Below, piece after piece: positions 21,222-21,854 of a DNA stretch of 64,000 nucleotides. A model generated the notes under the pieces. That model saw only the letters and a program-made list of their open reading frames with translations. It ran no database searches and was not told the DNA's origin. Every line of letters starts with the position of its first letter. The stretch's first letter is position 1. Source of the DNA: Diphasiastrum complanatum (taxonomy: Eukaryota > Streptophyta > Lycopodiopsida > Lycopodiales > Lycopodiaceae); contig CM055108.1 of the NCBI GenBank assembly GCA_029204225.1, forward strand, positions 26,031,303-26,095,302, given 5' to 3'. The position numbers were made by a program, and so were the translations under genes.

Positions 21222-21314
21222 CGCCATGATGTTCGTCTTTCTACTGATGATCATCTGCTTACTCAAATCAAGACTGGATTAGGTGAAGAAACATATCTGA
21301 TGGTGAATGTCATG
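21222..21314 (+). pseudogene. Captured eIF5A C-terminal exon fragment
   Basis: The plus frame reads [20 protein letters not shown], then TYLMVNVM. Plant eIF5A, the hypusine-containing translation factor, has DDLRLPTDDxLLxQIKxGF...DLVVTVMSAMG at its C-terminus (recalled from family knowledge). About 30 codons match in one uninterrupted frame. It is joined in frame to the actin fragment that follows. It lies inside element B on the opposite strand to gag-pol. It has no start codon context or rest of the gene, so it is a scrap. Confidence 0.75.
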
Positions 21315-21407
21315 CCTGCTATTCTGAGATTGGATCTTGCTGGGCGTGATCTCACAGACTATCCGATGAAGATTCTGACAGAACGTGGGTACTCGTTTTC
21401 TACGACA
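21315..21407 (+). pseudogene. Captured actin exon fragment
   Basis: The frame continues directly from the eIF5A piece and reads [20 protein letters not shown], then [10 protein letters not shown]. Actins carry [20 protein letters not shown], then TERGYxFTTTAEREIVRD, near residues 170-205 (family knowledge). The match is nearly perfect for about 30 residues and stops at STT, before AEREIV. Intact actin has over 370 residues, so this is a single short exon piece with no function as actin. Confidence 0.92.
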
Positions 21408-21686
21408 CATAAATTCTCTGATTGTTGGAGGGGTTGATCGTTCTAGCGAGCGAGCGCTGATCAGCGAAGGCACAACGATCGGTGCTCATCAGCAAGCGGG
21501 CGGTAGATGCAAGGTCGGAATTGTTCGAATGCTGAGCAGGAGCTGGTTCTTTTTCTGCTTGCAATCACTGTTGAATCAGACTAAAAGTAATAGAATAAAG
21601 TGAGCGGTGGCAGCTGCGGATTTCCTGCATGCGCTTGAGTTTGAGATAGTTTGTGTTGTATAGGCAAAGGATATTATCGTATTATC
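21408..21686. other. Unassigned sequence between captured fragments
   Basis: No protein family is recognised. It may hold further captured pieces or untranslated sequence: the 60 bases before 21687 could be the 5' untranslated part of the SEC11 source mRNA. GATCG-rich words occur near 21437-21480. Confidence 0.3.
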
Positions 21687-21854
21687 ATGGGGATGATAGG
21701 AGACGCAGTGGCGGCAGTGCGTGGCACGAATGTCAGGCATCTGCTTATGCAGATCATCAGTCTTGGTTTAATAGTCTCTTCAGCATTGATCATATAGAAA
21801 GGATTAATGTGCTTGACTGGGAGTGAACCACCTGTGGTAGTTGTTCTGTCCGGG
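21687..21854 (+). pseudogene. Captured SEC11 signal peptidase N-terminal fragment
   Basis: From an ATG, 56 codons read MGMIGDAVAAVRGTNVRHLL, then ISLGLIVSSALII, a stop at codon 37, and KGLMCLTGSEPPVVVVLSG. Eukaryotic SEC11, the catalytic subunit of the ER signal peptidase, begins this way: a short N-terminus, one membrane segment ending SALIIWK, then TGSESPVVVVLSGSMEPGF (family knowledge). The stop TAG replaces the Trp codon. The fragment ends just at the position of the catalytic serine in SGSMEP, where unrelated sequence takes over. It cannot be functional. Confidence 0.9.

Follow-up and report, generated by a model that had tools for sequence, protein, structure and literature searches.

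In a window of 64,000 nucleotides of the Diphasiastrum complanatum genome (contig CM055108.1; the window is the whole stretch of DNA that was analysed, and positions refer to it), the segment 21222–21854, hereafter the patchwork, is composed of pieces of three host genes, eIF5A, actin and SEC11, which lie on the plus strand within a long terminal repeat (LTR) retrotransposon of the chromovirus type, element B. The pieces are of RNA origin and have spread within LTR elements, and we consider it probable that element B belongs to a large chromovirus family in whose leaders host mRNAs, reverse-transcribed and linked at short homologies, form mosaics that are spread by retrotransposition.

Host gene pieces in the patchwork

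The assignment of the three stretches to eIF5A, actin and SEC11, made in a preliminary description from the letters alone, was borne out by protein matches and by DNA comparison with the parental genes. The eIF5A cDNA piece (21226–21322, plus strand, antisense to gag-pol) is spliced at 21266/21267, where a 108-bp intron is absent. At the protein level its match is weak (Pfam E = 0.039, under the family cut-off; rank 3 in the PDB, E = 0.39); at the DNA level it is clear, with 93% identity over 41 bp and 81% over 59 bp flanking an exon join of the eIF5A gene, and with a local score of 122 compared to a maximum of 32 among 1000 dinucleotide shuffles (the spliced reference had one surplus base at the join). 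The actin piece (21317–21406, plus strand) is joined to it via TGCTAT, common to both genes, and is 97% identical over 90 bp to a genomic actin gene. As the preliminary description had stated, the two pieces share one open frame (21189–21434, from stop to stop), which matched actin in the PDB with E = 5.5e-12. The SEC11 cDNA piece (21431–21856, plus strand, antisense to gag-pol) starts upstream of the ATG, located at 21687; it matched SEC11 in a protein search with E = 2.8e-13 and a genomic SEC11 gene with 95% DNA identity in two blocks, exon 1 ending at 21765 and exon 2 starting at 21766, with the 512-bp intron in between missing. In the window copy the SEC11 frame is interrupted by an in-frame TAG.

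A fourth gene had been overlooked at first: a piece of phosphoserine aminotransferase (PSAT) occupies 21876–21976 on the minus strand, in the sense of gag-pol, and consists of two stretches (BLAST against the donor gene, 5e-25 and 3e-9), the intervening 223 bp of the gene being missing. The Pfam search of the tail and filler frames had given no match, the tail being later found coded on the opposite strand. A second primer-site-like sequence, TGGTATCAG, adjoins the PSAT piece and was considered as a possible mark of mispriming.

Absence of introns

The edges of the fragments could have matched exon–exon joins or have run into introns; in the pieces compared with their parental genes no intron is kept, the absence being precise and clean, and therefore the source of several pieces was spliced mRNA. 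The SEC11 donor gene, on C2, has a GT-AG intron of 512 bp, which the patchwork lacks. The eIF5A donor, on C16, has introns of 90, 164 and 108 bp, each of which is absent in some copy, the 108-bp one in the window. In the C11 copy, which carries aspartate aminotransferase (AspAT), a 94-bp intron is absent, and a second of 140 bp is absent by position. The S-adenosylhomocysteine hydrolase (SAHH) gene, compared with the cassette of another copy, shows gaps of 209 and 723 bp where the cassette is continuous. The PSAT donor, on C7, is open over the 482 codons of the stretch read, hence uninformative on splicing.

Spliced joins were searched by a pattern with up to 4 edits (0–3 found) at 19 loci, which included the window and duplicated loci, and were detected at 2 (eIF5A-A), 10 (eIF5A-B), 12 (eIF5A-C), 7 (SEC11-1) and 1 (AspAT-b) of them, the misses including loci that may lack the piece itself. 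The captured pieces are therefore spliced, as in a transduction of the Bs1 kind (see below). A 108-bp gap between the SAHH matches, observed in comparison with other C13 copies, was evaluated as a retained intron and rejected, because it falls at the end of the coding sequence; it is more likely a deletion in the SAHH-bearing locus, L056. The donors are what we take to be abundant housekeeping mRNAs.

Copies of the patchwork in the genome

The whole genome (1.74 Gb) was searched with 21222–21854; there were 45 candidates, of which 40 were scored, and these yielded 44 matches. The entire stretch is covered at three other places, at 94–97%; two of them are on C10 and apparently represent a single insertion, the segment that holds it being duplicated (99.3% over 9.8 kb). 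Other matches cover either eIF5A–actin only or SEC11 and its neighbours only. The C4 copy is a complete element, with two LTRs (534 aligned positions, 10 mismatches and 14 gaps), the primer site TGGTATCAGAGC and flanks GGTCG/GTTCG (four of five bases alike), and contains the same mosaic as the window at 97%, so that the captured pieces lie within a replicated unit bounded by LTRs. The C10 copy has two LTRs, no target duplication (agaaa/gccta) and a primer site outside the second LTR; the C195 copy has one LTR, C11 a partial LTR, and in the C16 copy no LTR match was found at the expected place. The C1 and C8 copies carry a B-like gag-pol together with an eIF5A–actin version. Copies of one mosaic thus occur at unrelated loci: the patchwork is inherited and mobile, as a whole unit only in C4.

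The coding sequence of the C4 element differs from the gag-pol of B. In its place (L009, 5820–8373) two long frames of 453 and 337 amino acids were observed, with no Pfam matches; this element is perhaps a non-autonomous partner sharing LTR and leader with B.

A leader with varying cassettes

The leader of B, a region of degenerate repeats spaced by about 180–190 bp (22109–22705), was searched genome-wide. The search returned 1686 first-look candidates, 40 of which were scored, and all 40 were at least 89% identical. Matches to eIF5A, actin or SEC11 within 1.5 kb on the gag side accompanied 14 of the 40, all in antisense and none on the opposite strand, the strand being judged in most copies from the leader and not from gag. 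Three of the other 26 leaders, picked before their content was known, all carry other host mRNAs. L055 contains a piece of dihydrolipoyl acetyltransferase, the E2 of pyruvate dehydrogenase (E3-binding domain, E = 6.6e-9; PDB best 2.2e-4), and two further pieces with matches at other loci, where one of the two is interrupted by 294 bp; L056 contains two pieces of SAHH in opposite orientation, and L057 the N-terminus of HSP70. The cassettes of two more scored leaders are of the kinds seen in L055 and L056, which brings the leaders with an identified host piece to 19 of 40, which is also the number read. The same leader is bordered by four or more types of cassette, which differ in their genes. 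The pieces of eIF5A, actin, SEC11, AspAT, E2 and HSP70 are antisense, those of PSAT and phospholipase D (the latter in L039) are sense, and SAHH occurs in both orientations.

The copies also indicate in which order the events took place. The copies on C11, C1 and C8 have their actin piece embedded in eIF5A, the eIF5A gene matching on both sides with 14–15 bases matched twice. Besides TGCTAT between eIF5A and actin, the joins read from the alignments share ATGT (actin/eIF5A) and AAGGA (eIF5A/AspAT). In some copies eIF5A is followed by other sequence in place of actin, and in some SEC11 is accompanied by PSAT, or AspAT is present. Since different genes occur in different copies, the pieces were added or lost stepwise. 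An eIF5A cassette joined to phospholipase D alpha was found in L039, beside a gag remnant, and also in L048–L050, in other surroundings; this chimera may have moved between element types.

Element B and its surroundings

Element B spans 14861–22828 on the minus strand, with flanks AGGTC/AGGCC in which four of five bases are alike; the frames around it, read by eye, suggest that its host site is the reverse transcriptase gene of another gypsy element. All its coding parts lie on the minus strand. The 3′ LTR (TGTCATG...CATGACA, 14861–15395, minus strand) is directly preceded by the polypurine tract AAGTAAGGGGAG (15396–15407, minus strand). The chromodomain (15488–15712; Pfam PF00385, E = 3.3e-8), the integrase (15657–16850; Integrase_H2C2, 8e-16; rve, 7.7e-7, just short of the cut-off) and the reverse transcriptase/RNase H part (16854–17984; RVT_1 and RT_RNaseH) identify B as a chromovirus, with reverse transcriptase, RNase H, integrase and a C-terminal chromodomain. 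The gag region (19060–20462), with interrupted frames, was assigned by position and had no Pfam gag match. Of the 5′ LTR only the first 113 bases remain (22716–22828, minus strand; 96% identical to the 3′ LTR).

LTRs, primer site, polypurine tract and target duplication are found when the C4 copy and the window are taken together; the window copy alone has the 3′ LTR, the tract and the four matching flank bases, with its 5′ LTR reduced to 113 bp and the primer site gone. The preliminary description was right in placing the eIF5A, actin and SEC11 pieces inside B and opposite to gag-pol. It had put them where the LTR and the primer site should be, and this required correction: in relatives that keep the primer site the patchwork follows it within the leader and precedes the gag side, which indicates that the window copy has a deletion. 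What this copy lacks are LTR bases 114–535, the primer site and some 190 bp of the leader; the interval between the same two points measures 612 bp in the C4 relative, where the primer site and leader sequence are present together with the remainder of the LTR. Most of the 5′ LTR of the window copy would have been lost at a later stage.

On its gag side the patchwork is flanked by a minisatellite (GTAGAGAGAGAA..ACCGAAG, 20840–21190), and on its leader side by a short minisatellite-like stretch with GGTTAGG repeats (21985–22060). Telomere-like GGTTAGG repeats were also observed in the leader at 22020–22100 and in other copies, and a minisatellite similar to those flanking the patchwork lies at 228–655 (ATCTCGACCGATG..).

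Elsewhere in the window, an element with AG-rich direct repeats (24409–24922 and 28762–29270, 94%) occupies 24040–29269 inside a copia-like stretch, which is uninterrupted in L028 (C2), the empty site for this element. Two further direct repeats, 93% identical and about 4 kb apart (8981–9476 and 12965–13475), look like the LTRs of another element.

Probable capture during reverse transcription and its alternatives

Capture during reverse transcription explains these mosaics best, and would have proceeded as follows. Packaging would bring host mRNAs together with the element RNA, and jumps of the reverse transcriptase between mRNAs would occur at homologies of 4–6 bases. Plus-strand synthesis passes through the LTR and the primer site before it reaches the leader, which is the position of the cassettes, and we infer that the antisense pieces entered here, by a jump onto an mRNA during plus-strand DNA synthesis just past the primer site. 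Sense pieces would come from jumps in minus-strand synthesis, mixed cassettes would need both kinds of jump, or the joining of cDNA ends, and the new copies would then spread through normal retrotransposition. In one of the two options of the preliminary description B had captured spliced mRNAs by template switching. Capture is supported by the precise lack of introns and by the presence of the patchwork in mobile LTR elements; plain minus-strand switching, on the other hand, would presumably yield no antisense pieces. The idea that all the pieces are antisense and derive from plus-strand switching was dropped once PSAT proved to be sense.

Several points weigh against this explanation. Orientation is mixed, and plus-strand switching alone cannot make every mosaic; cDNA captured at DNA breaks could equally show joins at short homologies and a short duplication; both LTRs together with near-matching flanks were found only in C4. 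Moreover, the 14 leaders with eIF5A, actin or SEC11 include close relatives and are not 14 independent captures, the sample consists of 19 read of 40 scored leaders, with 1646 candidates outside the scoring, and, the queries being patchwork and leader, captures elsewhere in the elements would escape.

The main rival is break repair with cDNA, in which host cDNAs made by any reverse transcriptase would fill double-strand breaks in integrated elements that then retrotransposed. It would account for the mixed orientation inside one cassette, the short-homology joins, the unassigned fillers of 24 and 19 bp that flank the SEC11 piece (21407–21430 and 21857–21875) and the 14–15 bases repeated around the actin insert. 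However, the leader has received different captures repeatedly, and all 14 eIF5A/actin/SEC11 cases, not all independent and coming from a leader- and patchwork-based search, have one orientation. We regard patching of this kind as possible, though rather unlikely; the joining may have taken place while reverse transcription was under way or when breaks were repaired with cDNA.

A chimeric retrocopy made by a LINE, inserted once into the leader and then inherited, would also yield spliced pieces, but the at least four cassette types beside the same leader would require repeated hits at one place, and an unsystematic inspection by eye of the cassette edges, in the window and in some other copies, revealed no poly(A) tail or target duplication; this origin seems very improbable to us. 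Least tenable of all, and scarcely credible, is the insertion into B of a Pack-MULE, CACTA or Helitron element, as the preliminary description had alternatively proposed: mosaics of fragments from several genes are typical of such elements, but introns are precisely absent in four genes, whereas Helitron pieces derive from genomic DNA and keep them, and other members of the LTR family have mosaics at the same place, along with the LTR, the primer site and the leader. The inverted repeats within 20300–22900 are all short, only 16 pairs with arms of 15–34 nt at 71–87%, the longer ones of low complexity; no tool-based search for Helitron ends was made. The possibility that inverted repeats or tandem arrays mark the ends of a transposon around the patchwork was discarded, only short arms and minisatellites being present, as was the left flank compared with the right as ends of an insert (best match, E = 0.024).

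Returning to capture during reverse transcription, a broader version can be advanced only tentatively, and we hold it doubtful: the host-mRNA leader would be a standing capture site, repeatedly filled, mainly in plus-strand synthesis, and much of the more than 1000 elements would carry turning-over, mostly antisense copies of abundant mRNAs.

Comparison with known systems

No publication describing such a family was found among the matches listed, judged by titles and beginnings of abstracts, with subscription literature mostly outside the coverage. Here a single family offers many stepwise captures together with mRNA donors identified in the same genome, and the orientation and place of capture, the length of homology and the choice of mRNA, hence the rules that capture follows, are directly measurable in it. 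If the leader is a standing capture site, it would provide a general route to antisense sequences in LTR elements and would supply antisense or small RNAs directed against housekeeping genes.

The following comparisons refer to the accessible parts of the cited sources. One of the closest likenesses is with Bs1 of maize, an LTR retrotransposon that took up segments of three host genes (PMC13317346, PMC7264820), whose orientation is not stated in those parts. In the present case, by contrast, a large chromovirus family is involved, the captures lie before gag in the leader, they are mostly antisense, and the genes vary by copy. According to the accessible text of a review (PMC7264820), genes transduced by LTR elements usually have the same orientation as gag-pol, which is not the orientation found here for most pieces. 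In LTR-mediated retroposition (Tan et al. 2016, per PMC5408686), template switching copies host mRNA, often in part, into element cDNA at microsimilarities. The joining at microsimilarities is alike, and that model would be expected to yield sense inserts, whereas here several genes per cassette occur in many copies and mostly in antisense. LTR elements of rice and sorghum also contain host genes (PMC3726574); that survey deals with annotated genes in elements, and its main text lacks the words orientation, antisense and intron. Finally, the additional open reading frames of Grande, RIRE2 and Retand are likewise extra sequence antisense to gag-pol, and the origin of most such frames in plant LTR elements is given as unknown in the accessible text of the review (PMC7264820); in the family described here, instead, the pieces precede gag and have been assigned to host donors.
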